From Ancylobacter rudongensis (GTDB taxonomy: Bacteria; Pseudomonadota; Alphaproteobacteria; Rhizobiales; Xanthobacteraceae), in assembly GCF_900100155.1 (NCBI RefSeq), contig NZ_FMTP01000008.1:124001-188000 (forward strand): a DNA stretch of 64,000 bases. Reading direction: 5' to 3'. Of the stretch, positions 32,616-46,267 are shown in pieces; within the stretch, counting starts at the first letter, position 1; the number at the start of each line of letters is the position of its first letter. Below the pieces are notes generated by a model that did no database searches, had not been told where the DNA came from, and saw only the letters and a program-made list of their open reading frames with translations. The translations under genes and the position numbers were made by a program.

Positions 32616-34307
32616 ATGACGCCGAAACAGATCGTGCCGGAATTTCACGTGTGCGGCCCGTTGGACGACGCCTCGCTCGCGCGGGCTGCCGCCGGCGGCT
32701 TCCGCGCCATCATCTGCACCCGGCCCGATGGCGAGGAGCCGGGACAATTGCCGGCGGGCGAGGTTGCCATCCTAGCCGAGGCGCTCGGCATGGCCTTCGT
32801 TCATATCCCGGTGACGCCCGGCAGCTATACCGAGGCTGACGTGGCCGAGATGCGCGCCATGCTCGACCGGCTACCCGGCCCGGTGCTCGGCTATTGCCGC
32901 ACCGGCAACAGGGCGGCGACGCTGTGGGCGCTCGCGCAGGCGGACCGGCAGCACCCGGACGCGATTCTCGCGCTGACGTCTGCCGCCGGCATCGACGTCT
33001 CCGGCCAGCGGGCCCGGCTCGCCGCGCGCGCCGACGCGCCCCGCCCCGGCGCGCCCAAGACCTATGACGTGGTCATCGTCGGCGGCGGGGCGGCCGGCAT
33101 CGCCACCGCCTCCAGCCTGTTGAAGCGCCGGCCCTCGCTCGACATCGCCATCGTCGAGCCAGCGGAGTGCCATTTCTACCAGCCGGGCTGGACCATGGTC
33201 GGGGCTGGCGTGTTCAAGCCGGAAACCACCCGCGTGCCGATGGGCGCGGTGATGCCCGACGCCGTCACCTGGATCCGCCAGGCCGCCGCCGGCTTCCTCC
33301 CCGAGGCACGCGAGGTGGCGCTCGCGGATGATTCGTCCGTGCGCTACCGCGCGCTGGTCGCCGCGCCCGGCCTGCGGCTGGCCTGGGAGGCCATTCCCGG
33401 CCTGCCGGACGCGCTCGGGCGCAACGGCGTGACGTCCAATTACCGCTTCGACCTCGCGCCCTACACGTTCGGCCTCGCCAGCACGGTGAAGGCGGGCCGC
33501 GCGCTGTTCACCCAGCCGGCCATGCCGATCAAATGCGCCGGCGCCCCGCAGAAGGCCATGTACCTGTCCTGCGACATCTGGCGCGGTGCCGGCGTGCTGC
33601 CGCGCATGGAGGTGGAGTTCCACAATGCAGGGGGCGTGCTGTTCGGCGTGCCGGCCTATGTACCGGCGCTGATGGAGTATGTGGAGCGCTATGGCATCGA
33701 CCTGAATTTCGGTTCAACCCTCGTCGCCGTCGACGGCGAGGCGCAGGTCGCGACCTTCGAGCGCAAAGGTGCAGATGGCGCCACCGAGCGGGTCGAGCGC
33801 TCCTTCGACATGCTGCACGCCGTGCCGCCACAGAAGCCGTTGGATGTTGTGGCCACCAGCCCGCTGGCGGGAGCGGGCGGCTGGATCGAGGTGGATCCGG
33901 CAACGCTGCGCCATGCGCGCCACCCGGACGTCTTCGCCCTCGGCGACGCCACCAACACGCCGAACGCCAAGACCGCCGCCGCCGCCCGCAAGCAGGCGCC
34001 CGTCGTGGCGGTGAACGTGCTTGCGGCGTTGGACGGCAAGGCGCCGGCCGCCCAATATGACGGCTATGGCTCCTGCCCGCTCACCGTCGAGCGCGGCAGG
34101 ATCGTGCTGGCCGAATTCGGCTATGGCGGTGCGCTGCTGCCCACCTTCCCGCGCTGGATTCTCGACGGCACCCGCCCCACCCGTCTCGCCTGGCTCCTAA
34201 AGGACCGCATGCTGCCGCCGATCTACTGGCACGCCATGCTGAAGGGCCGCGAATGGCTGTGCGAGCCTCAGCCGCTTGCTGCGGCGCCCGGCCGCGAGGC
34301 CGCCTGA
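32616..34307 (+). CDS. sqr: DUF442-sulfide:quinone oxidoreductase fusion
   Basis: 563 aa. Residues 1-115 are a DUF442 (Blh-like phosphatase-fold, rhodanese-like) domain with active-site loop GYCRTGNRA (C94). From about residue 145 a type II SQR follows: FAD motif VVIVGGGAAGIATA, PIKCAGAPQKAMYLSCD with the catalytic-type cysteines, VFALGDATNTPNAKTAAA and DGYGSCPL. It oxidises sulfide with reduction of quinone and passes the sulfane on; the fused domain probably accepts or transfers it. Overlaps the TSUP gene by one base (TGATG). Confidence 0.94.
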   Translation: MTPKQIVPEFHVCGPLDDASLARAAAGGFRAIICTRPDGEEPGQLPAGEVAILAEALGMAFVHIPVTPGSYTEADVAEMRAMLDRLPGPVLGYCRTGNRAATLWALAQADRQHPDAILALTSAAGIDVSGQRARLAARADAPRPGAPKTYDVVIVGGGAAGIATASSLLKRRPSLDIAIVEPAECHFYQPGWTMVGAGVFKPETTRVPMGAVMPDAVTWIRQAAAGFLPEAREVALADDSSVRYRALVAAPGLRLAWEAIPGLPDALGRNGVTSNYRFDLAPYTFGLASTVKAGRALFTQPAMPIKCAGAPQKAMYLSCDIWRGAGVLPRMEVEFHNAGGVLFGVPAYVPALMEYVERYGIDLNFGSTLVAVDGEAQVATFERKGADGATERVERSFDMLHAVPPQKPLDVVATSPLAGAGGWIEVDPATLRHARHPDVFALGDATNTPNAKTAAAARKQAPVVAVNVLAALDGKAPAAQYDGYGSCPLTVERGRIVLAEFGYGGALLPTFPRWILDGTRPTRLAWLLKDRMLPPIYWHAMLKGREWLCEPQPLAAAPGREAA

Positions 34308-35092
34308 TGCTGGAGCCGCTGCAATACGGCCTTGGCGCCGGTGCCGGCGTTCTCGTCGGCTTCACCCTCGGGCTGGTCGGCGGCGGCGGCTCCATCCTCG
34401 CCGTGCCGCTGATGGTCTATCTCGTCGGCGTGCGCAATCCGCACATCGCCATCGGCACCAGCGCCTTCGCGGTCGCCATCAACGCGGCGGCGGGCCTGCT
34501 CAGCCATGCCCGCGCCGGCACGGTGAAGTGGCGCTGCGGTGGCATGTACGCCACCGCCGGGATCGTCGGAGCCTTTGCCGGGTCGAGCCTGGGCAAGCTT
34601 ATCGCTGGCGAGAAGCTGCTCTTTCTGTTCGCCCTGCTCATGCTGGTGGTCGGCGTCCTGATGCTGCGCGGGCGCGGAAATCCGGCCGAGCCGGGGGCGG
34701 AATGCAACCGAGCGAAGGCGCCGAAGGTGCTCGGCTTCGGCCTCGGCACCGGCGCCTTTTCCGGCTTCTTCGGCATTGGCGGCGGTTTCCTCATCGTCCC
34801 CGGCCTGATCGGCTCCACCGGCATGCCGATCCTCAACGCGGTCGGCACCTCGCTGGTGGCCGTCACCGCCTTCGGCCTCACAACCGCCTTCAATTATGCA
34901 CTGTCCGGGCTGGTGAACTGGCCGCTGGCCTTTACCTTCATCGCGGGCGGAGCACTCGGCAGCGTCGCCGGCATGAAGCTCGCCCAGCGCCTCTCTGGTC
35001 GCACAGGGCGCCTCACCACCGTGTTCGCGACGCTGATCTTCGCGGTGGCGAGCTACATGCTGTTCAAAAGCGCCTCGACCCTGCTGGCCTGA
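34307..35092 (+). CDS. TSUP (TauE/SafE)-family sulfur-compound exporter
   Basis: 261 aa integral membrane protein, about eight helices, with the TSUP glycine signatures GFTLGLVGGGGSILAVPLM and GFFGIGGGFLIVPGLI, a duplicated half. TSUP proteins next to PDO/SQR are proposed to export sulfite. ATG 34307 overlaps the SQR stop codon (TGATG) and starts exactly at the first family helix, so the longer frame from 34253 is rejected. A strong terminator follows at 35140-35163. Confidence 0.9.
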   Translation: MLEPLQYGLGAGAGVLVGFTLGLVGGGGSILAVPLMVYLVGVRNPHIAIGTSAFAVAINAAAGLLSHARAGTVKWRCGGMYATAGIVGAFAGSSLGKLIAGEKLLFLFALLMLVVGVLMLRGRGNPAEPGAECNRAKAPKVLGFGLGTGAFSGFFGIGGGFLIVPGLIGSTGMPILNAVGTSLVAVTAFGLTTAFNYALSGLVNWPLAFTFIAGGALGSVAGMKLAQRLSGRTGRLTTVFATLIFAVASYMLFKSASTLLA

Positions 35093-35190: not shown

Positions 35191-35265
35191 TGGAGCGGGC
35201 GATGGGATTCGAACCCACGACCCCAACCTTGGCAAGGTTGTGCTCTACCCCTGAGCTACACCCGC
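35191..35265 (-). tRNA. tRNA-Gly (anticodon GCC)
   Basis: On the minus strand: acceptor stem GCGGGTG/CGCCCGC, D arm GCTC..GAGC, anticodon stem AACCT/AGGTT with loop TTGCCAA (GCC), T arm GTGGG-TTCGAAT-CCCAT, discriminator T and an encoded CCA. All four arms pair. Confidence 0.97.
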
Positions 35266-35414: not shown

Positions 35415-36290
35415 TCAAAGCGCACGGCGGGTAAACGCGTCGGCGAGGCCGGTGCCGTCGCCGGCCCGCTCCAGCCGGCAGTGATGAAACAGCTCACCCG
35501 CCTGGCGTTCGGCCTTCAGCCGGCGCACCACGACCCGTTCGCCGGGATCGATATTGCCGTGGAAATACACCTCGCGCACACGCGTGGTCGCCAGCGGCGC
35601 GCGGCGGCCGTCGAACTGCCATTCGGCCTGGTCGATGAAGGCGATGAAGCTGGAGAAATAGAGAAAGCCGGCGCCGTTGAAATCCTGCGCCGGGCAGGGG
35701 TCGATCTCCAGCACTGCTTCCTGATCGTGGGACTGGCTGCATTCAAATCGTGCGTCCTGCGACGTGCGCCCGGCCCGGAAGGCGGCGGCTCGGGCGGCAA
35801 GCGCCGAATCGCTCCGGCCTCCACCCGTGCGGGTCGGCGCAGGCAAGCCATCCAGCGCCACCCGCGCCACCGTATGGTTGCCGCCGCCCGGCGCCCGGCG
35901 CACGAAAGCAGACACCAGATGCACCGTGCCGACAACACGCCCACAGCAGGTGAGGTCATGCCGGCTGGCGCATTGGGTGCGGGAGATGCGGCGCAATTGG
36001 CTGCGCAGCGTCAGCCGGTCATTCTCACCCAGCGAGGCGAAGTCCGCATTCTCCACCGCCAGCGCGCTGAACGCGGCGTAGACCGGCGCACCGTCGGCAG
36101 CGCGGAAGTCGGGCACGGCGCGGCCGGCCAGACGCGCCAGCCCCATCCAGTGGCGATGGCCCAGTTCCTTGAGCAGCCACGTTTCCGAGAGCCCGCCGAG
36201 GCAGAGCTGCGGCATGCCGAGCAGCACCGTATCTTCCACGACGGGCGCCGGGGTAGCGGCGAACGACCCGGGAGGGAGGACGAGGTTCAT
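35415..36290 (-). CDS. LnmK-like acyltransferase/decarboxylase (Pnap_2097-type biosynthetic protein)
   Basis: 291 aa. I recognise an overall likeness to the double-hotdog LnmK family, biosynthetic enzymes acting on acyl-CoA/ACP thioesters (LCLGGLSETWLLKELGHRHW; ASRHDLTCCGRVVGTVHLVSAFVRR; DFNGAGFLYFSSFIAFIDQAEW; REVYFHGNIDPGERV). LnmK itself transfers and decarboxylates a methylmalonyl group. ATG 36290 overlaps the stop of the upstream flavoprotein gene (ATGA), so it belongs to the nitrilase-cluster operon as its last gene. Substrate and exact reaction here are unknown; no acyl carrier protein is visible nearby. Confidence 0.72.
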   Translation of the reverse strand: MNLVLPPGSFAATPAPVVEDTVLLGMPQLCLGGLSETWLLKELGHRHWMGLARLAGRAVPDFRAADGAPVYAAFSALAVENADFASLGENDRLTLRSQLRRISRTQCASRHDLTCCGRVVGTVHLVSAFVRRAPGGGNHTVARVALDGLPAPTRTGGGRSDSALAARAAAFRAGRTSQDARFECSQSHDQEAVLEIDPCPAQDFNGAGFLYFSSFIAFIDQAEWQFDGRRAPLATTRVREVYFHGNIDPGERVVVRRLKAERQAGELFHHCRLERAGDGTGLADAFTRRAL

Positions 36291-37552
36291 GCGGCGCTTC
36301 CCCGCCGGGCCTGCCGCGCCCGCGCGTCGATATGGGCGACGATGTGCGCGGCATCGCGCCCGACGCTGCCGAAGCGGCCGGAGCCCCAGGTGTGCAACCA
36401 GGGCAGGCCGATGAAATACACGCCCTCGCGCGCCGTGATGCCGCGACGGTGCTGGGGATGGCCGGCGCCGTTGAACACCGGCGCGTCGAGCCAGTGGAAA
36501 TCGGGCCGGAAACCGATGCACCAGACGATCGAGGCGATGCCGGTGACGGCGAGGTCAAGCACCCGGCGCTCCTCCGGCGGCTGCCAGACCGGCTCGTAGA
36601 CCGACGGCGGCGGCGCCTCCAGCCCCTTCGCGGCGATATGCCGGTCGATGGCGGCGTTGATGCCGTTATAGGTTCTGTCGGCCTCGTCGAGTGCCGATGC
36701 AAGGTTCGGCTCGAAAAGGAGTCTTTCCCCGTCAACGTCGCGCAGTGCGCCGTAGAGCTCCATGCCCTCAAGGGCAAATTTGCGCAGGTCGATGTCGCGC
36801 CCGCCATCGCGGCCGGTGACATAATGGTTGGTGTTGTCGCGCACGCCTTCGCGCAGCGGGTGCTCTTCCACAGGCATGTCGTAATAGCCCATGTCGGCAA
36901 GCCAGGTGACGACGTCGCGGCCGCGGTAAAAGCGGGCGCAGCGCGGGGCATTGCCCACCGCCAGGAACACCTTGCGGCCGGCCAGGTGCAGATCCTCGGC
37001 GATCTGCGCGCCGGACTGGCCTGAGCCGACCACCAGCACCGGGCCGTCGCGAAGCTGGCCGGCATTGCGGTACTGCGCCGAGTGGATCTGCACGATCGCC
37101 GGGGGCAGCCGCTCGGCCATGCGCGGCACGATCGGCTCGTGATAGCCGCCCGACGCCACAACCACATTGTCGGCGCTGAAATCGCCCGCGCTGGTGGCGA
37201 CGAGAAAGCCACCCTCCGGCCGGGGCGTCACCCGCCGCACGCTCACACCCTCGCGAATCGGTGGATCGACCTTGGTCCGGAACTCTCTGAGATAATTAAG
37301 GATTTCGTCCTTTTTCATGAAGCCGTCCGGCTCCGGGCCGGCATAGGGATGGCCGGGCAGGTCGCACTGCCAATTGGGCGTGACAAGGCAGAAATTGTCC
37401 CAGCGCTGAGTTTCCCAGGCGTGCATCGCCCGGTGCTTTTCGATCACCAGATGGTCGATGCCCTGCCGGGAGAGATGATAGCTGGTCGACAGGCCGGCCT
37501 GTCCGCCGCCGACGATGACGACCGTATAATGCGCGACGCGGTTCTCGTTCAT
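36287..37552 (-). CDS. MSMEG_0569-type flavin-dependent oxidoreductase
   Basis: 421 aa. Two Rossmann motifs as in flavin monooxygenases: FAD site [17 protein letters not shown] (about residue 11) and NADPH site [22 protein letters not shown] (about residue 170), plus [11 protein letters not shown] near the C-terminus. No signal peptide. This family is found almost only inside the conserved nitrilase cluster present here. It probably oxygenates or oxidises the pathway intermediate. It overlaps the LnmK-like gene by 4 nt and lies 14 nt after the small MSMEG_0570-type gene. Confidence 0.88.
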
Positions 37553-37566
37553 GGGGTCTCTCCGGC

Positions 37567-37854
37567 TCAGTCGTCGAAGGATTCGACGGCGACGCGGGCG
37601 TCGGGATGGGTGGAATAGGCGCGGCCTGCGGCCTCCAGCCGAACGAGCTGACCCAGTGCGCGCGAGCAGGGAAAGCCGTAGCGCGCCTCGACGCGATCGC
37701 TGGCGATGGTGAGCGCCTCACGCGATTTCGCAAGGAATTCCAGCAGCTTGTAACTCTCACCGGGGACGAAATAGTCCTTGATGACCAGCGAGGGCGAGTA
37801 GCAGGCCTCGACCGTGCCGTCCGGCCAGCGGATGGAGAAGCGCATTTCAGGCAT
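37567..37854 (-). CDS. MSMEG_0570-type small protein
   Basis: 95 aa, conserved in nitrilase clusters and annotated in databases as a nitrogen-starvation-response protein. Features: MRFSIRWPDGTVEACYSPSLVIKDYF, then a helical segment SYKLLEFLAKSREALTIASDRVEARYGFPCSRA. No catalytic motif recognised. Start ATG 37854 overlaps the end of the glycosyltransferase gene by 8 nt. Biochemical role unknown; the shape (short beta plus helix) would fit a carrier or binding protein, but there is no Ser-containing carrier motif. Confidence 0.85.
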   Translation of the reverse strand: MPEMRFSIRWPDGTVEACYSPSLVIKDYFVPGESYKLLEFLAKSREALTIASDRVEARYGFPCSRALGQLVRLEAAGRAYSTHPDARVAVESFDD

Positions 37855-39004
37855 GGGCGGGCTCCGCGAGGGTCTCGTAGATGGGCAGGTGGGCTCGCGC
37901 GGTGGCGGCCCAGTCGAAACGGGCGGCGGCCTGCGGCCCCTTTTTCGCAAGGCGCGCTAGGGTTTGCGGCTGCAGGGCCAGCATCAGCGCGTCGGCGATC
38001 GAGGCGGGATGAAGCGGATCGCACCACACGGTTTCGTTCTCGCCGATATGCTCGGTGAAGGGGGCTATGCGCGAGACCACGGTCGGCACGCCGCAGGCCA
38101 TCGCCTCCAGAGCCACCAGGCCGAAACCCTCCTTCACCGAGGGGAAGGCGAGCACGTCGGCGAGGCGGTAGAGCGCCGGCATATCGGCCTGCGCCTGCGG
38201 CCCGGCGCGGATCACCGCCTCCGCCGGCAGGCCGAACGAAGCCAACAACGCTTTGAATTCATTGAGATAATCGTGATGGTCGAGCACGCTGGCCCCGCCG
38301 GCGATGACGAGCTGGGCGCGCGGGTGCATGGCCCGGAGCTGAATGAAGGCCTCCAGGATGCGGCAGCTGTTCTTGCGCGCCTCGACCCCGCCGACGCTGA
38401 GCACGACGGGGCCGGAGCCGAGGCCGAGACGGGCCGCCAGCGCCGCCTCCCGGCCGTCGGGGACGGGCGTGAAGCGCTTGATATCAATGCCGTTTCCGAC
38501 CAGCGTGGCCTCGATTCCGAACGTCTCGGCGAGCAGATCCTGCCAGAGATGGCTGACGACGAAATGCTGATCGGCGGCGAGAATCGATCGATTTTGCAAG
38601 GCGTTAAGCGCGGGGTCGCGGAAGGCGTCGATATGGTGGACCGTGCGGGCGAAGCCGGGGATGAGGCCGCGCTCCTTCAGCGTCGCCAGGGCGTTGGCCG
38701 AGATGCCGTCCTGGGCGTGAAACACGTCGAAGCGGCGGTTCGCTACTTCGTTGAAATAGCTTACATATTCGTCGATGCGCTGGCGCACCATCGCCGCCAC
38801 GTCGCCCGGTGCCGGCGCGGCGGGGACGCTCACCGTCGCGCACAGGCTCGGTCGGAAAAAACCCGCGCCGCGCGGATCCGGCGCATGCACCACCGCCTCG
38901 AAACCCAGTCGTACCAACGCTTCGCCGAGTTCCAGCGCGTGGACGACGCCGCCGCGCGGGTTGGTGGAATGGGCGAGAAGGGCGATGCGCAGCGGCCGCG
39001 TCAT
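37847..39004 (-). CDS. MSMEG_0565-type glycosyltransferase, family GT4-like
   Basis: 385 aa, GT-B fold. N-terminal IALLAHSTNPRGGVVHALELGEAL; C-terminal donor domain with VLSVGGVEARKN, LVIAGGASVLDHHDY and the EX7E-type motif FPSVKEGFGLVALEAMACGVPTVVS. Cytoplasmic. ATG 39004 overlaps the preceding AIR-synthase-like gene (ATGA). Its presence means the cluster's product or intermediate is probably glycosylated (inference); the sugar donor cannot be read from the sequence. Confidence 0.88.
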   Translation of the reverse strand: MTRPLRIALLAHSTNPRGGVVHALELGEALVRLGFEAVVHAPDPRGAGFFRPSLCATVSVPAAPAPGDVAAMVRQRIDEYVSYFNEVANRRFDVFHAQDGISANALATLKERGLIPGFARTVHHIDAFRDPALNALQNRSILAADQHFVVSHLWQDLLAETFGIEATLVGNGIDIKRFTPVPDGREAALAARLGLGSGPVVLSVGGVEARKNSCRILEAFIQLRAMHPRAQLVIAGGASVLDHHDYLNEFKALLASFGLPAEAVIRAGPQAQADMPALYRLADVLAFPSVKEGFGLVALEAMACGVPTVVSRIAPFTEHIGENETVWCDPLHPASIADALMLALQPQTLARLAKKGPQAAARFDWAATARAHLPIYETLAEPAHA

Positions 39005-40005
39005 GCCGCGTCCTCCGCCGGCCCGCAGCCGATGAGCGGCGCACGGGAAAAATCCCATATCGTCTCGCGGCTTAGGCCCTGTCTCACCGTGACCTTCCGC
39101 TCCGCCGTCACGGTGCCGATGGCGGCCGCGGCGATGCCGCGTTCAGCGAGGGTGATCAGGACGATTGGGAGGACGGTCAGTGCGATGGGAATGATGTAGC
39201 CGAAGCTCGGGAAGGTCATCAGCCAGCGCACGGGATCGACCCCCTCGGGCGCCGGCACCGCGTCGAGGTCGATCTCGATGCCGACCCCGGACCCCTCCGC
39301 CAGCATGGCGGCGGTGCCGACGATTCCCGCCTGGCTGATGTCCTTGCCGGCGCAAGCGAGCCCGGCCTCGGCGAGGCGCGGCAGCAGGTCGAGATCGCCG
39401 CGCAGCCGCTCCGCCGGGGCGCCGGTGGCGGCGTCCCAGTTGGAAAAGGGCTCGCGGTAGCGCCCGCGCAGGTCGATCGCCGCCACCAGCACCTCGCCGG
39501 GGCGGGCGTCGAAGGAGGTGAGGAGCTTGGTCGCCCGGCCGAGCACGGCGACGGAGAGCTGGCCGCGATCGCTCGCCAGATTGGTATGGCCGCCGACAAT
39601 GGGCACGCCGAAGCGCTGCGAGGCGGCGCGCAGCCCCTCCAGCACCGGGGCGGCGCCGTCCTCTCCCTTCGCCCACACCGCATCCACCACCGCGAGCGGG
39701 CGCCCGCCCATGGCGGCGATGTCGGAGAGGTTGACCATCACCCCGCACCAGCCGGCGAACCAGGGGTCGATGGCGACGAACTCGTTCATGAAGCCTTCGA
39801 TGGCGAACAGCAGATAGCCCTCGCCATCGGGGATCGCCGCGCAGTCGTCGCCGACGCGGATGGCCTCGCGCCCGTCAAAGCCGAGCCGGGCGGCGGCGCG
39901 AGCGATATCGGCCTTGGAGGCGAGGCCGGAAGAGGCGCGTAGCCGGCTCACCACCTCGGAGAAGGCGTTGTCGGAGAAGGTGGTGGTCGGCGCGCGCGCT
40001 TGCAT
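39001..40005 (-). CDS. AIR synthase-related protein (Sll0787 type)
   Basis: 334 aa, PurM/SelD/ThiL-like ATP-dependent fold: IRVGDDCAAIP, GWCGVMVNLSDIAAMGGRPLAVVDAVWA (metal/ATP site), VPIVGGHTNL, KDISQAGIVGTAAML and FPSFGYIIPI. Relatives phosphorylate an amide-type or acid oxygen to drive condensation or dehydration. Not the purine enzyme: it sits only with the nitrilase cluster. ATG 40005 follows the GNAT stop by one base; it overlaps the glycosyltransferase by 4 nt. Confidence 0.88.
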   Translation of the reverse strand: MQARAPTTTFSDNAFSEVVSRLRASSGLASKADIARAAARLGFDGREAIRVGDDCAAIPDGEGYLLFAIEGFMNEFVAIDPWFAGWCGVMVNLSDIAAMGGRPLAVVDAVWAKGEDGAAPVLEGLRAASQRFGVPIVGGHTNLASDRGQLSVAVLGRATKLLTSFDARPGEVLVAAIDLRGRYREPFSNWDAATGAPAERLRGDLDLLPRLAEAGLACAGKDISQAGIVGTAAMLAEGSGVGIEIDLDAVPAPEGVDPVRWLMTFPSFGYIIPIALTVLPIVLITLAERGIAAAAIGTVTAERKVTVRQGLSRETIWDFSRAPLIGCGPAEDAA

Positions 40006-40006
40006 G

Positions 40007-40549
40007 TCACGCCGCCCGTCTTGGCTGGGCGTGGAAGCCGGTTTCGGCATCAAGGATCGGCGGGTAATGCGCGAGGTCGGCCTGCATCAGCACATGCGGC
40101 CGGCCGTGCAGTTGCTTTTCCTCGACCATGTTCCAGTGCAGGCGGCGGAACAGCAGCGCGTTCTGGGCCTGCACATGGGCCAGAAACCGGGTGCAGCCGC
40201 GGGCATGGGCGGAGGAAACGGCGAGGCGGATCAGCGCCGCGCCGAGCGCGCCGACCTTGCGATAGTCTTCCGCCACCGCGAGCCGCGAGCCCCACCACAG
40301 GCCCGGTTCGGCCTCGTGGATGCGCACCGTGCCGACCACATCGTCGGCCAGCAGGCCAAGCAGCGAGACGGCGACGATGGGAATGGCGGTGTCGTCGATC
40401 GTATCGCGGTCGTCGCCGGCGAACAGGCCCTGCTCGTCGCAGAACACCTCATGGCGCAGCCGCGCGGCGCCGCGCTTCTCCCAGGTCGCGGTGGCGAATT
40501 TCACCTGGAAATCGGCGGCGCGGAAGGGGCGGAAGGTGCCGTACATCAT
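40007..40549 (-). CDS. GNAT-family N-acetyltransferase (MSMEG_0567/Sll0786 type)
   Basis: 180 aa. GNAT core with VKFATATWEKRGAARLRHEVFCDEQGLF, GTVRIHEAEPGLWWGSRLAVAEDYRKVGALGAALIRLA (acetyl-CoA loop in KVGALGAA) and FLAHVQAQNALLFRRLHW. It probably acylates an amine of the pathway intermediate. ATG 40549 overlaps the end of the radical SAM gene (ATGA). Confidence 0.87.
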   Translation of the reverse strand: MMYGTFRPFRAADFQVKFATATWEKRGAARLRHEVFCDEQGLFAGDDRDTIDDTAIPIVAVSLLGLLADDVVGTVRIHEAEPGLWWGSRLAVAEDYRKVGALGAALIRLAVSSAHARGCTRFLAHVQAQNALLFRRLHWNMVEEKQLHGRPHVLMQADLAHYPPILDAETGFHAQPRRAA

Positions 40550-41742
40550 GCGCAGCCCCCCTGCCGCATCTCGCCTTGCCGCAAGTCACCTTGCCGCACG
40601 TCATCCCGGCCAAGCGCCTGCCGCTCATAGGTGGAGAGCGCCGAGCAGGCGCCGCATTTGGCGCAGCCGGCCTTCACCTCAATGGATTTCAGCCCCGTCG
40701 CCAGCAGCATCCCCGAGAGCGGGCCGAGGATGGAGTTCATGAAGGCGGGCGTGGGCGTCGGGTGGCTTTCCAGCGGCGTGCCTGAGATCGGCACGAAGGG
40801 CACCACGAAGGGATAGACCCCCATGCGGGTGAGCCGGTCGCAGACGGAAAGGATGTCCTCTCGGCTGTCGCCGAGCCCGGCGAGAATATAGGTCGACACC
40901 TGCCCGCGCCCGAACACCGGCACGGCGGCGGCAAACGCTGAGAAGTAGCGCCCCACCGACACCTGCGCCTTGCCGGGCATGATCGCCGCGCGGACCTCTT
41001 CGGTGCAGGCTTCCAGATGCATGCCGAGCGCGTCGGCGCCGGCCTCGAACATGCGGGCGAACCAGGCATCGTCGTCGGGCGGCTCGCACTGCACCTGGAT
41101 CGGCAGGTTCACCGCCGCTTTCACCGCCGCCGCGCTCTCGCTGAGCATCGCCGCGCCACGGTCCTTGCCCGGCGGGGTGCCCGTGGTCATCACCATGTGC
41201 TTGACGCCATCCAGCTCGACGGCGGCTTTGGCGACTTCCGCCAGCTGGGTCGGGGTCTTGCGCTCGATGGTGCGGCCGGCGGCGAGCGACTGGCCGATGG
41301 CGCAGAACTGGCAGGTCTTGGTGCGGCTCTGGTAGCGGATGCAGCTTTGCAGCACCGTGGTCGCCAGCACGTCGCGCCCATGCAGCACGGCGATCTTGGA
41401 ATAGGGAATGCCGTCCGCCGTGGAGAGCCCGTAGAATTTCGGCTGCAGCGGAAACGACACCTCGCCCAGCACCAGCCCGTCGCGGCTGATGCGGCTGCGG
41501 CCGAAAGCGTCCGGTTTCTCGACGAGATAGGGGCTCTCGAAGGCCGGCGCGGTGTGGACGGGGACCATCACCGTCATGCCGTCCAGCGTCATCGCCTTGT
41601 GGTCGGAAGGCCCGGCCCCGCCCCGGCGGCTATCCGCGCCGGCGCGGGGATCGACCAGCCGCACCCCGTAGGACTGCAACTCGTTGATCAGCTGCTGCGT
41701 CGGCAGCGGGCTAGGCCCGCTCGCCAGATCCATCGGCTTCAT
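40546..41742 (-). CDS. Radical SAM enzyme (MSMEG_0568 type)
   Basis: 398 aa. The [4Fe-4S] triad is C-x9-C-x2-C ([15 protein letters not shown]), longer than the canonical CX3CX2C and resembling lipoyl-synthase/biotin-synthase-like relatives with spaced clusters. A second cysteine group, CAKCGAC, lies near the C-terminus and could hold an auxiliary cluster. Residues between form the TIM barrel ([48 protein letters not shown]). The C-terminus ends in three short repeats ending RQG. It overlaps the nitrilase gene by 32 nt. The reaction is unknown. Confidence 0.9.
40561..40605. repeat. Three tandem 15-bp units at the 3' end of the radical SAM gene
   Basis: Units CTGCCGCATCTCGCC, TTGCCGCAAGTCACC and TTGCCGCACGTCATC follow head to tail and encode [15 protein letters not shown] on the minus strand. 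The array lies after the conserved cysteine cluster, so it is probably a lineage-specific tail expansion. Confidence 0.8.
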
Positions 41743-42727
41743 CGGAAACGCTCCCTGTCAGGACGGGGAAGGGGACATCGGCATCGGTGTGGACCGGCAC
41801 GGCCGGGCGTGTGTCGTGGTTGAGGCTGAGCAGTTCCGGCCGGGCGTAATGGCCGACCGAATCCATCATCCGCTTGCGCTTGGTGATGAGCGCCATGTCG
41901 AGATCGGCGATCAGAATGCCCTCGCCCGTGGTGAGCGGGGGCACGACATGGCTGCCCTCGGGCGAGATGATCGCGCTCATGCAGCCACCGGTGAGGGCCT
42001 TGCGCAGCTTCTCGTCGGGGGAGATGCGGGCGATCTGTTCGTCGGTGAGCCAGCCGGTGGCGTTGACGACGAAGCAGCCCGATTCCAGCGCGTGGTGGCG
42101 GATCGTCACCTCGATCTGCTCGGCGAAGATCGGCCCGACCAGCGCGCCGGGGAACTGGGCGACGTGGATTTCCTCGTGCTGGGCCATCAGCGCGTAGCGG
42201 GCGAGCGGGTTGTAATGCTCCCAGCAGGCCAGCGCGCCGACGCGGCCCACAGCGGTGTCGACCACCTTCAGCCCGGCGCCGTCGCCCTGGCCCCAGATCA
42301 TCCGCTCATGAAAGGTGGGGGTGATCTTGCGGCGCTTCAGCTTGAGCGCGCCATCGGCGTCGAAGATCAGCTGGGCATTGTAGAGCGAGCCATGGTCGCG
42401 CTCATTCACGCCCAGCACCACGACGACGCCGAGCCGGCGGGCGGCAGCCGACACCGCCTCCGTCACCGGGCCGGGGACGAGGACGGCGTTGTCATAGAGC
42501 CGCAGATGCTCCGCCCCGGTGAGCACGGGGGGCAGCACGAAGGAGAAATAGGGGTACCAGGGCAGGAAGGTCTCGGGGAACACGACAAGCTGCGCCCCTT
42601 TGCCGGCCGCCTCCTCCAGCGCCGCGAGCACGCGGGTGAGCGTGCCCTCCAGGCTGTCGAGGGAGGGGGCGATCTGCACCGCGCCGACGCGGACGATGCG
42701 TTTTTCGGCGCCGGGTCTTTCGACCAT
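41711..42727 (-). CDS. Nitrilase of the Nit1C type (Sll0784-like)
   Basis: 338 aa, carbon-nitrogen hydrolase with the full Glu-Lys-Cys triad: [23 protein letters not shown] and [12 protein letters not shown]. It hydrolyses a nitrile to an acid plus ammonia. Members of this subgroup are the hallmark of a conserved cluster (nitrilase, radical SAM, GNAT, AIR-synthase-like, flavoprotein) that has been linked genetically to cyanide assimilation; the physiological nitrile is not established here. It follows the Sll0783-type gene after an 80-nt gap holding a hairpin repeat. Confidence 0.93.
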
Positions 42728-42754
42728 GTCGGTTCTCCTTGCCGTTGGCCGTCA

Positions 42755-42786
42755 TCCCGGACGGCGGCACTGCCGCCGATCCGGGA
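42755..42786. repeat. Perfect hairpin repeat between nitrilase and Sll0783-type gene
   Basis: TCCCGGA-CGGCGGC / ACT / GCCGCCG-A-TCCGGGA forms a 14-bp stem with one bulge. The 16 bases CGTCATCCCGGACGGC (42750-42765) recur exactly, inverted, at 43641-43656 before the MocR gene. It looks like a REP/palindromic intergenic element and could also attenuate or protect the operon transcript. Confidence 0.75.
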
Positions 42787-42807
42787 GCGTGCCTTCGGCG
42801 CTGCGGA

Positions 42808-43290
42808 TCACAGCGTCCAGGTATCGAGGATGAAGGCGTTCTCGCGGCGGTGCAGCAGCACGATGTCGAGCACATCCAGCGGGCTAATCGGCACGATGCC
42901 GGGGATCAGCGCGCCCTCGCCATGGCCGTACAGCGCCTGCAGGGCGAAGCGGCAGGCATAGACCTTGCCGCCATCGTTCAGGATCTTCTCGATGCGGTTG
43001 TTGAAGTTGAGATGGCCGGGAAAGGCCTCGTCGCCGAGCTTGGGGAAGCCACGCTGCACGCCCAGCGTGACGCCCGGCCCGTAGAGCAGCACCGAGGTCT
43101 CGAAGCCCTTCTGGATCAGGCGCGAGGCCTGCAGCAGGTTGACGAGGCCGATCGAGCCCTCGAAGGCGACGGTGTGGAAGGTGACGAGCGCCTTCTCGCC
43201 GGGGGCGGCCTTTACGTCTTCGAACTTCTTGTCCTCGTAATCGACGAGGATGTCGCCCTTGGCATGGGCCGGCACGGTGATGGTGGCCAT
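42808..43290 (-). CDS. MSMEG_0572/Sll0783-type protein (DsrE-like fold)
   Basis: 160 aa, first gene of the nitrilase operon. Fold like DsrE/Tus[42 protein letters not shown], then [26 protein letters not shown] with one conserved-looking cysteine. The relative in cyanobacteria is reported as nitrogen-starvation induced. Start ATG 43290 has AAGGAGA 6 nt upstream. Molecular role unknown. Confidence 0.87.
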
Positions 43291-43688
43291 GTCGCTCTCC
43301 TTGGATGGAACAGGCCGGCGGGAACCGGCCCCCAGAGGAAATGCAATCAAGATGCCAATTGATCGAACACCGAAAGAATCATCAAAACAATCAAATTACA
43401 TACAATACTACATTCAATGTAGCTAAGCCGGCCGGAGTCGATCTGGCGAGATTGCGGGCGGACGCTTAGAGAAACGGCGGGATACTGCCCGCTTCCTGCG
43501 CAGGCGAGGGCGACGGCTCCGGTACCGCCCTTACGCAGCAAGTTGTGGACCAAGGGTGACAGGCCACCTTTGCAACATTATACAGTCAATCAGGGCGAGC
43601 TAGGATGAATGCCGTCCTCCCGGCCGTGCGGTGCGCTGCGGCCGTCCGGGATGACGACAGGTGCGGGATGACGACAGGTGAAAGACGC
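43291..43688. promoter_or_regulatory. Divergent control region of the nitrilase operon and MocR gene
   Basis: 398 nt between divergent genes. 43341-43425 is AT-rich compared with the surroundings and holds a palindrome CTACATT-C-AATGTAG (43408-43422), preceded by ACATACAATACTACAT; this is the best candidate operator for the MocR regulator. A second AT-rich patch near 43575-43590 (ACATTATACAGTCAAT) lies close to the regulator gene. The right end (43611-43680) is the palindromic/tandem repeat described separately. No coding sequence seen. Confidence 0.5.
43641..43680. repeat. Palindromic element copy with tandem 17-bp repeat upstream of MocR gene
   Basis: GCCGTCCGGGATGACG (43641-43656) is the exact reverse complement of 42750-42765. 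CGGGATGACGACAGGTG occurs twice in tandem (43647-43663 and 43664-43680). Because this repeat occupies the first 25 codons of the longest frame (ATG 43605), translation more likely begins at 43689. Confidence 0.75.
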
Positions 43689-45074
43689 ATGGCCGACTGG
43701 ATTCCCGACCTCGCCCGCTCCGACAAGCCGCGCTACCTCGCCATTGCCGACCTGATCGGCGAGGACATCCGCGCCGGGCGGCTCGCCATCGGCGACCGGC
43801 TGCCGCCGCAGAGAAAGCTCGCGGCCAAGCTCGACATCGACTTCACCACCGTGGCGCGCGGCTATGTCGAAGCGCAGAAGCGGGGCCTGGTCGAATCCCG
43901 CGTCGGCCAGGGCACTTTCGTCACCGGCACGCCGCGCCCGAAGACCCGCACGGCGCGCGCGCCCAAGCCCGGCACCGTCGACCTATCGATGAACCTGCCG
44001 CCCGAGCCGGACGACCCGGCGCTGATCGAGCGCATGCAGGAGGGTCTCGCCGAGGTGGCGCGCGATCTGGTGGCCCTGCTTCGCTACCAGGGTTTTGGCG
44101 GGACCGTGGCGGACAAGGACGCCGCCTCGTCCTGGCTCGGCCGGCGGGCGCTGGTGCCGGCGCAGGAGCGCATCTTCGTCACCCCGGGCGCCCACCCCGC
44201 TCTGCTCGGCATTTTCGGCCTGCTGGCCCGGCCGGGCGATGTGATCCTGTGCGAGGCGATCACCTATCCCGGCGTGCGCGCCATCGCCGCCCAGCTCGGC
44301 ATCAAGCTCGTCGGCCTGGCGATGGACCTTGACGGCATCGACCCCGATGCTTTTGCGAGCGCCTGCCGCGAGATGAGCCCGAAAGCGCTCTATCTCAACC
44401 CGACGCTGCAGAACCCGACCACGCTGACCATTCCCGAGGAGCGGCGCGAGGCGATCGCCAAGGTGGCGCGGCGCTTCGGCGTGCCGATCGTCGAGGACGA
44501 CGCCTATGGCTTCGTGCCGCCGCACGGGCCGCCGCCACTGGCGGCCATCGCGCCTGATCTGACCTGGCACATTGCGGGGCTGGCCAAATGCATCGGCGCC
44601 GGGCTGCGCGCGGCCTATGTGGTCGCTCCCGAGGCCCGCGCCGGCTACCCCTTCGCCAGCGCCCTGCGCACCGCCAATGTGATGGCCTCGCCGCTCACCA
44701 CCGCGCTGGCGACGCGCTGGATCGAGGACGGCACTGCCGACACGCTGCTGCGCTTCATCCGCTCGGAGACCGCCGCGCGGCAGGCGCTGGCGAGCGAGAT
44801 TTTGCCCGCGGGCAGCTTCCGCGCCGACCCGCTGAGCTTCAACCTCTGGATCGAACTGCCGGCGCCGTGGACCCGCTCGGCCTTTGTCGGCCATATGCGC
44901 TCCACCGGCATCGGCGTGGTGGCGAGCGACGCCTTCACCGTCGCCGGCCCGGCGATCGAGGCGGTGCGGGTGTGCCTCGGCGGCCCGGCGACGCGGGCGC
45001 AGATCCGCTCGGCGCTGGATTTCATGGCGCACGCGCTGGAGGAATCGCCCGAGGTGGTGTCGGCTGTGATGTGA
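43689..45074 (+). CDS. MocR/PdxR-type GntR regulator with aminotransferase domain
   Basis: 461 aa from ATG 43689 (AGGTGAAAG upstream). Residues about 10-75 are a GntR winged helix (KPRYLAIADLIGEDIRAGRL; LPPQRKLAAKLDIDFTTVARGYVEAQKRGLVE). Residues about 100-455 are a class I aminotransferase fold (TPGAHPALLGIFGLL, YLNPTLQNPTT, IVEDDAYGF, and AGLAKCIGAGLRAAYV with the PLP lysine). MocR proteins use PLP-bound ligands as effectors. It is divergent from the nitrilase cluster and probably controls it, which would make an amine or amino acid the signal (inference). Confidence 0.9.
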   Translation: MADWIPDLARSDKPRYLAIADLIGEDIRAGRLAIGDRLPPQRKLAAKLDIDFTTVARGYVEAQKRGLVESRVGQGTFVTGTPRPKTRTARAPKPGTVDLSMNLPPEPDDPALIERMQEGLAEVARDLVALLRYQGFGGTVADKDAASSWLGRRALVPAQERIFVTPGAHPALLGIFGLLARPGDVILCEAITYPGVRAIAAQLGIKLVGLAMDLDGIDPDAFASACREMSPKALYLNPTLQNPTTLTIPEERREAIAKVARRFGVPIVEDDAYGFVPPHGPPPLAAIAPDLTWHIAGLAKCIGAGLRAAYVVAPEARAGYPFASALRTANVMASPLTTALATRWIEDGTADTLLRFIRSETAARQALASEILPAGSFRADPLSFNLWIELPAPWTRSAFVGHMRSTGIGVVASDAFTVAGPAIEAVRVCLGGPATRAQIRSALDFMAHALEESPEVVSAVM

Positions 45075-45199: not shown

Positions 45200-46267
45200 T
45201 CACCCCAGCGCCCGCGCCGCCTCAACGAGCCGGTCGACATCGCCCTCCGACGTGGCGAAGGAGGTGACGAGGCGCACCACGCCCGCGCCCCAGCGATCGG
45301 TGTAGAAGCGGAAGCCCTGCGCCAGCAGGCCCTCGCAGATGGGTTGGGGCAGGCGGACGAACAGCATGTTCGCCTCCACCTCCCCCTGTATCTCCACCCC
45401 GGCAATCCCCGCGAGGCCGGCGGCCAGCCGCGCCGCCATCGCATTGGCGTGGCGGGCATTGGCGAGCCAGAGGTCGTCTGCGAGATAGGCGTCCATCTGC
45501 GCAGCGAGAAACCGCATCTTCGAGGCGAGGTGGCCGCCGCGCTTGCGGCGGAAGGCGAGCTCACTGGCGCGGGCGGGATCGAACAGCACGATCGCCTCCA
45601 CCCCCAGCGCGCCATTCTTGGTGGCGCCGAAAGAGAGGATGTCCACCCCCGCCTTCCAGGTCATCTCAGCCGGGCTGGCGCCCAGCGCCGCCACCGCATT
45701 GGCAAAGCGCGAGCCGTCCATGTGCAGGGGCAGGCCGGCGGCGCGGCACACCGCGCCGAGGGTGGCGGTCTCCTCCATCGAATAGAGCGTGCCGAGTTCC
45801 GTGGCCTGGGTGATCGAGACGCAGGACGGCTGCACGCAATGCACGTCGCCGCGGTTGCGGCGGGCGGCGTCAGCCAGCGCTTCGGGATCGATCTTCGCGG
45901 CCGCGCCCGGCACATGCACCAGCTTGGCGCCGCCGGTGAAGAATTCCGGCGCGCCGCATTCATCATTCTCGATATGGCTGTCGGCATGGCAGAGCACCGC
46001 GCCCCAGGGCGGGGTAAGGACACTCAGCGAAAGCGCATTGGCGGCGGTGCCGGTCGAGACCAGCAGCACGCTCACCTCGCGCTCGAACAGGGCGGAGAGC
46101 TTTGCCTCGACGCGGGCGGAGATCTCGTCGGCGCCATAGGAGGGCATCGGCCCGTCATTGGCGGCGGCGAGCGCGGCCAGAATGGCGGGGGAGATGCCGG
46201 CGACATTGTCGCTGCCGAAGCCGGGCGGGCGGGAGGCGGACGGAGAGGCTGCGGGGGTCTCGGTCAC
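45200..46267 (-). CDS. Low-specificity L-threonine aldolase
   Basis: 355 aa PLP enzyme (beta-eliminating lyase family) cleaving threonine/allo-threonine to glycine and acetaldehyde. Motifs: [29 protein letters not shown]-like [29 protein letters not shown] (PLP Asp) and [13 protein letters not shown] (Schiff-base lysine). Monocistronic, convergent with the MocR gene. No signal peptide. The N-terminal 18 residues are Ser/Pro rich, so a later start is possible. Confidence 0.92.

Follow-up and report, generated by a model that had tools for sequence, protein, structure and literature searches.

A window of 64,000 nucleotides (nt) from the genome of Ancylobacter rudongensis (contig NZ_FMTP01000008.1, positions 124,001 to 188,000 of the forward strand; coordinates given without a locus label are those of the window) carries a nine-gene operon that combines the Nit1C core, nitB to nitH, with a GT4 glycosyltransferase gene and an LnmK-like gene. 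Our preferred reading, held tentatively and with slightly less than even confidence, is that this LnmK-type Nit1C operon is induced by nitrogen limitation and that NitB-H and the LnmK-like enzyme form a pathway that yields a small acylated metabolite and includes nitrile hydrolysis as one step. This pathway is favoured because of the redox phenotypes of two published mutants and because of the gene set itself. Three lines of evidence are new here: the co-occurrence of the nitrilase with the radical SAM enzyme; the signs of control by sigma-54, tandem repeats and a MocR-like regulator; and, as the main new evidence, the genes added after nitH, which point to propionyl. The control elements and the methylmalonyl/propionyl theme go beyond what the initial annotation of this DNA contained.

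Gene content and conservation of the operon

The nine open reading frames run on the minus strand from 43290 to 35415 as one tightly packed operon; all start with ATG, none contains an internal stop, and all nine products pass curated NCBIfam cut-offs (given in bits after each score). The operon begins with nitB of the DsrE-like Sll0783/MSMEG_0572 family (42808..43290; TIGR04044, 271.5 against 109.85), followed by nitC, a Nit6803-type nitrilase gene (41711..42727; TIGR04048, 564.5 against 502.6), nitD, which encodes a radical SAM enzyme with a CX9CX2C motif and a C-terminal CXXCXXC (40546..41742; TIGR04043, 593.4 against 303.7), nitE for a FeeM-like GNAT acyltransferase (40007..40549; TIGR04045, 237.6 against 68.45) and nitF for an AIR-synthase/ThiL/SelD-like enzyme (39001..40005; TIGR04049, 446.3 against 321.3). 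The GT4 glycosyltransferase gene of the MSMEG_0565 family (37847..39004; TIGR04047, 505.1 against 259.85) precedes nitG of the MSMEG_0570 family, 95 amino acids (37567..37854; TIGR04042, 125.3 against 79.85), nitH for a FAD/NAD(P)H monooxygenase-like oxidoreductase (36287..37552; TIGR04046, 675.8 against 498.35) and the gene for a LnmK-like methylmalonyl thioester acyltransferase/decarboxylase (35415..36290; TIGR04099, 322.1 against 125; TIGR04098, 280.9 against 100). The junction gaps along the operon are 80, -32, -4, 1, -4, -8, 14 and -4 nt; at all but two of the eight junctions, nitB/nitC and nitG/nitH, the genes overlap or come close to touching.

The initial annotation had described nine genes in one overlapping operon with a core of the Nit1C type, and both statements hold. 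The genes nitB-H are contiguous and ordered on one strand, as the definition of Nit1C has it, and the nitrilase exceeds the Nit6803-family cut-off and possesses E52, K134 and C168, which we take to be the catalytic triad and which are kept in at least 95% of 101 alignment rows. It is the only nitrilase over the family cut-off in this genome, and its closest named relatives are from Ancylobacter.

Conservation was followed in a survey of 398 genomes of the phylum, with nitrilase scoring on up to five candidates per genome. The radical SAM family exceeds its cut-off in 16 of the 398 genomes and the nitrilase exceeds its own in the identical 16; no over-cut-off nitrilase occurs in the 398 genomes without the radical SAM gene, and in all 16 short loci nitB, nitC, nitE and nitF adjoin that gene. 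Among 80 larger loci, 66 are complete in that they contain nitH and at least 2.5 kb past it, and 63 of these 66 have all of nitB-H, which places the nine-gene arrangement beyond chance; the GT4 gene is present in 57 and the LnmK-like gene in 32. In one of the three exceptions (L022) nitE, nitF, the GT4 gene, nitG and a second nitH lie elsewhere in the same genome, on a different contig, and in the other two (L055 and L065) nitG was not detected. Outside the cluster, no conserved neighbour is common to the 80 loci except the MocR-like gene.

The proposal that the operon does more than degrade nitriles is likely to be right, because no over-cut-off nitrilase was found without the radical SAM gene in the 398 genomes and because the genes added after nitH handle acyl groups; however, plain assimilation of cyanide or nitriles stays a serious rival. 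According to this rival, cyanide and keto acids react chemically, NitC hydrolyses the resulting cyanohydrin to release ammonia, and the other genes only support, repair or regulate this. We consider it unlikely, and the conservation of a multi-enzyme set argues against it. The actinobacterial picture, which consists of one Rhodococcus plasmid (strain JS3073, locus L137) and published papers, bears on it in both directions. The plasmid cluster comprises nitB, nitD, a fused nitE-nitF, nitG, nitH and the GT4 gene; the Nit6803 nitrilase is absent from the cluster itself and two other CN hydrolases are found there instead, which does not suit cyanide assimilation. On the other hand, the plasmid keeps a Nit6803-like nitrilase close to the cut-off (469.5 against 502.6 bits) about 660 kb from the cluster, and therefore the loss of nitrilase function in Rhodococcus is not shown. 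The second of the two CN hydrolases in the cluster (L137:13913-14761), which adjoins the apparently intact one, has Asp at the expected catalytic Cys, and its sequence suggests a pseudo-enzyme partner.

Genes following nitH

Three kinds of added genes were found past nitH: a LnmK-like gene, a LnmK-like gene together with a methylmalonyl-CoA mutase gene, and a gene for a ligase resembling propionate-CoA ligase. As far as sequence can tell, they suggest a supply of propionyl thioester. Among the 66 complete loci the LnmK-like gene stands directly after nitH in 27 and farther on in five, and the four strong matches of the LnmK family in the 398 genomes are all in Nit1C genomes. Nit1C and an LnmK-like gene are also present on the megaplasmid of Methylorubrum extorquens AM1, a laboratory strain. 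The product of LnmK is propionyl-acyl carrier protein (propionyl-ACP). A near-invariant Tyr of the LnmK-like family (position 72 in alignment numbering) aligns with the LnmK Tyr that we take to be catalytic. The family profile matches the LnmK structures 4hzn, 4hzo and 6x7l (E 1.8e-14), whereas a single-sequence query matched none; by PDB naming LnmK is a methylmalonyl-CoA:ACP acyltransferase/decarboxylase. The window protein thus resembles LnmK of the leinamycin pathway (the 4hzn group) in exceeding the family cut-off and in the aligned Tyr, but it differs in context, since NCBIfam and Pfam scans recognised neither an acyl carrier nor a polyketide synthase in the window operon.

In Burkholderiaceae the methylmalonyl-CoA mutase gene lies right after the LnmK-like gene in all six records opened, from at least 12 Burkholderiaceae LnmK records among 40 listed of 58. 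The two genes overlap by 4 nt in three annotated records, and both mutases tested pass the equivalog cut-off. Such a neighbour gives indirect support to a predicted conversion of methylmalonyl-CoA to propionyl-ACP by the LnmK-like enzyme; mutase and decarboxylase together would run from succinyl-CoA to a propionyl thioester, which is the biosynthetic direction. No mutase accompanies LnmK in the opened records L156, L157, L169, L171 and L172, and a Thalassospira record (L170) has LnmK without a Nit1C cluster. The genome of the window carries a mutase domain elsewhere, and clusters free of added genes may use the cell's own acyl-CoA.

The Pantoea cluster has an AMP-forming ligase gene after nitH, and the best NCBIfam match of its product, below the cut-off, is propionate-CoA ligase; the same best match was obtained for the ligase after nitH in Komagataeibacter, which is 33% identical to that of Pantoea. 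At E 1e-120, a plasmid search that used the Pantoea ligase as query gave 373 Klebsiella, 30 Escherichia and one Pantoea record, 311 of these 404 being under 60% identical. The plasmid search with the radical SAM protein gave 373 Klebsiella and 30 Escherichia records, equal to the ligase numbers, an agreement of counts and not of record lists; in four Klebsiella records present in both listings the ligase and radical SAM genes share a strand and the former is located about 3.15 kb past the latter, the expected position after nitH. At the thresholds used, neither a Pantoea-type ligase nor a mutase occurs in the 66 complete loci, which serve as background. On a quick NitD tree, labelled with loci beyond the complete ones as well, the LnmK label changes 17 times, at least eight of them by well-supported branches. 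The occurrence, in several lineages, of different genes that seem fit to supply propionyl suggests that the operon builds an acylated small molecule, and plain cyanide assimilation has no obvious place for them.

Other genes were noticed beside the clusters of some of these loci. DUF983 genes adjoin Nit1C at L156:6571-6933, L169:9890-10297 and L171:1212-1649, and in eight of the 80 genome loci a sequence that looks similar by eye is found close to the cluster. In L169, a Methylocystis iwaonis plasmid, the cluster is split and rearranged, and a group consisting of phosphosulfolactate synthase, a pyridoxal phosphate (PLP) enzyme and a lyase, as in coenzyme M synthesis, adjoins it (L169:1-4307).

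Promoter and divergent regulator

A sigma-54 (-24/-12) promoter, TGGCATCTTGATTGCA, is located about 50 nt upstream of nitB (43342..43357, minus strand) and has the conserved GG-N10-GC form. No other exact match to TGGCAY-N5-TTGCA occurs in the window, where 0.04 are expected; the 4.5 Mb genome has three, against one for the reversed-pattern control. When at least eight of ten core bases are required, 72 of 81 upstream regions (the 80 loci and the window) have the element no more than 130 nt from nitB. Of 31 further loci, some of them from genomes already counted in the 80, 23 have it within 200 nt; the Rhodococcus locus and one locus whose upstream sequence is only 7 nt long are among those without it.

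Upstream of the promoter lie three tandem TTGwhTG repeats spaced by 12 and 11 nt (43388..43417, minus strand), and an additional repeat stands next to the regulator start (43583..43589, minus strand). There are 3.7 such repeats per upstream region against 0.2 in base shuffles, a count that is somewhat inflated because the motif can match the promoter's own -12 part; at least two are present in 71 of the 81 regions. Among spacings of up to 40 nt, 37 of 71 equal 11 or 12 nt, approximately one helical turn. The repeats are the likely operator, predicted from sequence, of the divergent MocR-like regulator (GntR and aminotransferase domains; 43605..45074, plus strand), whose best NCBIfam match is EhuR with 449.5 bits, below the cut-off of 480. 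At least 95% of 82 rows retain its K328, presumably the PLP lysine. Of the 80 loci, 77 have a divergent MocR-like gene; in L135 and L143 a gene for a sigma-54 activator occupies its position. To our knowledge MocR proteins do not open sigma-54 promoters, so a further activator would be needed. The genome encodes NtrC over its cut-off, and the best scores of NtrC dyads in the upstream regions are near those of shuffles (15 of 72 score 9 or more, where about 10 are expected).

The sigma-54 promoter and the MocR-like regulator with its conserved Lys would also suit a salvage of amine nitrogen, in which NitH turns an amine into an oxime, the oxime is dehydrated to a nitrile and NitC releases acid and ammonia, while the amine is the signal for the regulator and a second amino group is shielded by acylation. 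The Pfam matches of NitH, which include Lys_Orn_oxgnase and FMO-like, are in keeping with this scheme; however, none of the nine proteins has a Pfam match to an aldoxime dehydratase, and the radical SAM enzyme would have no clear role, which makes amine salvage improbable in our judgement.

Two observations concern this region. Locus L078, titled Solirubrobacterales bacterium 70-9, has the sigma-54 element and the MocR-like gene like the proteobacterial loci, and the phylum retrieved by a search centred on its genome is that of the window; its actinobacterial title is probably wrong. Past the regulator, a Beta_elim_lyase (Pfam) gene, threonine-aldolase-like by eye, is located on the minus strand at 45200-46267.

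Features of single proteins

NitB contains one Cys, invariant in 101 of 101 alignment rows, and the same Cys aligns with a Cys of a DsrE/DsrF-like protein in a weak PDB profile match (E 0.15); this is the match left, as the NitB structure model (predicted local distance difference test, pLDDT, of 65) is too poor for a structure search. In NitD, six Cys are kept in 98-100% of the 101 rows, in the motifs C134-X9-C144-X2-C147 and C360-X2-C363-X2-C366. The NitD profile matches nothing in the PDB at E 0.01, and lipoyl synthase LipS2 is among its weaker NCBIfam matches, far below the cut-off. These features could indicate a sulfur-containing redox metabolite, with NitB carrying sulfur, NitD inserting it by means of its second iron-sulfur site, and the product keeping NADPH high in nitrogen starvation. 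The invariant NitB Cys, the NitD CXXCXXC, the weak DsrE and LipS2 matches and the NADPH phenotypes of published mutants speak for it. Yet the DsrE relation is weak in sequence and the NitB model poor, a second iron-sulfur site also fits other chemistry, and the NCBIfam and Pfam scans recognised no sulfur donor enzyme in the operon. We rate it marginally below amine salvage.

For the remaining proteins, NitE scores 29.3 bits with Pfam FeeM, narrowly above the gathering score of 27, alongside 29.6 bits with Acetyltransf_1. The second-best NCBIfam matches, each below its cut-off, are methanogenesis marker 2 for NitF, MshA for the GT4 protein and ArsO for NitH. The NitG model is confident (pLDDT 93.9) and has no Foldseek match in the PDB at E 0.001. 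In loci L105-L118 (group codes f38, f57 and f78) a far longer protein was observed, in an open frame of 726-939 amino acids, whose radical SAM part is distantly related to NitD.

The operon is followed by a tRNA-Gly gene (35191-35265, minus strand). Beyond it, at 32616-35092 on the plus strand, lies a gene in which a sulfur transferase domain (TIGR01244) is fused with a sulfide-quinone-reductase-like domain, followed by a TauE/SafE gene.

Comparison with described clusters

The pathway had been called likely undescribed in the initial annotation, which does not hold for its core, since Nit1C has been known since 2005 (Podar et al., PMC1199592) and was later studied for cyanide (PMC11049912). 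The 2005 description, which also covers clusters that have a glycosyltransferase gene between ORF5 and ORF6, shares seven core genes with the window, and the window GT4 gene has the same position as the glycosyltransferase of the Burkholderia and Rubrivivax clusters (PMC1199592). The window differs in the added LnmK-like gene and the divergent MocR-like gene with its repeats; that account reports no experimental function, and its authors were unable to identify a conserved binding site upstream. In the open-licence literature, most subscription papers being outside this scope, no paper was found that gives the Nit1C product or joins the cluster to methylmalonyl-CoA mutase.

The suggested ties of the core to nitrogen starvation and cyanide are borne out by published work. 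In Pseudomonas, nitC is tied to cyanide assimilation, for which NitC is essential in two strains (PMC11049912), and the operon is induced by cyanide in Pseudomonas fluorescens. Cytochrome bd oxidase genes adjoin the cluster in Komagataeibacter (L138:16397-18988, together with a DUF2474 gene) and in two Methylorubrum loci (L052 and L072), where they possibly serve cyanide tolerance. All this favours plain cyanide assimilation. The nit1C cluster of Pseudomonas pseudoalcaligenes CECT 5344 has nitB-H and a divergent regulator, as in the window; however, its regulator is NitA, a sigma-54 type of the Fis family, whereas that of the window is MocR-like, and its gene list is without the glycosyltransferase and LnmK genes that the window has (PMC11049912). 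In picocyanobacteria the cluster is tied to nitrogen-poor waters (PMC10119275), and it is also tied to an Antarctic lake (PMC9716671).

The gpr cluster of Mycobacterium smegmatis, MSMEG_0565-0572, is under nitrogen-starvation control, as predicted for the window operon, but differs in that this control is exerted by GlnR; it shares with the window the DsrE-like, selenophosphate-synthetase-like and flavin oxidoreductase genes (PMC6039565); the MSMEG family names of NCBIfam derive from its locus tags. Genes of the same cluster are listed as induced in mycobacterial nitrogen limitation (PMC4222082, PMC4617892). The window is not of the gpr type, in which nitE and nitF are fused and other CN hydrolases lie in the cluster, as in L137: its nitE and nitF are separate and its Nit6803 nitrilase is inside the cluster. 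Deletion of the whole gpr operon leaves NADPH/NADP below wild type and reduces peroxide resistance (PMC6039565), and deletion of sll0783 in Synechocystis likewise keeps NADPH/NADP below wild type (PMC3901256). The former paper nowhere uses the word cyanide and the latter has it in the reference list only. That redox phenotypes arise without cyanide is a further point against plain cyanide assimilation.

What function does the operon perform?

In the acylated-metabolite pathway that we prefer, nitrogen limitation would switch on the operon through the sigma-54 promoter, and the MocR-like regulator, which by its family should sense an amino compound, would tune it. NitB-H would jointly build or process one small metabolite, with changes to its scaffold made by NitD (radical SAM), NitF (ATP-using) and NitH (a flavoprotein). 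The GNAT protein NitE would add an acyl group and the GT4 protein, where present, a sugar; in the LnmK subtype the acyl group would probably be propionyl, derived from methylmalonyl-CoA by the LnmK-like enzyme. NitC would hydrolyse a nitrile to acid and ammonia, the nitrile being either on the pathway or formed when cyanide is trapped. The initial annotation had considered a product that itself bears a nitrile, and nothing found here points to one.

Several observations weigh against this pathway. LnmK is present in only four of the 16 Nit1C genomes and has two near-cut-off matches outside them, and 34 of the 66 complete loci have no recognised acyl supplier, the query searches having covered LnmK, mutase and ligase. 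The Pantoea and Komagataeibacter ligases score about 500 bits against the propionate-ligase cut-off of 955. Another gene lies between nitH and LnmK in L045, L056, L072 and L076, and in nine Methylobacterium/Methylorubrum loci (L050, L052, L056, L059, L063, L068, L069, L072 and L076) nitH is followed by a gene for an exported-looking protein of about 310-340 amino acids. The NitD tree that carries the LnmK labels is quick and has long branches. The NCBIfam and Pfam scans of the operon proteins recognised neither an acyl carrier nor an exporter family. The redox phenotypes stem from distant versions of the cluster and one single-gene mutant, the nitrilase relative elsewhere on the Rhodococcus plasmid weakens one argument, and NitC is reported to be essential for growth on cyanide (PMC11049912).

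A wider reading, which we regard as doubtful, is that Nit1C clusters of several phyla make an undescribed class of small N-acylated metabolites under nitrogen starvation, with propionyl as the acyl group in the subtypes that have LnmK, mutase or ligase, which keep NADPH high and perhaps trap cyanide as a nitrile that NitC hydrolyses. The cluster is widespread, and marine cyanide use is inferred from its presence. For finding the product, propionate or methylmalonate would be a concrete label in view of the acyl-supply genes, and the control sites for sigma-54 and MocR hint at when it would be made and at what the regulator may bind. Should the product be a redox metabolite, cyanide use inferred from nitC alone needs rethinking; and a metabolite that both keeps NADPH high and traps cyanide would, if true, unite the cyanide and redox phenotypes in one mechanism.

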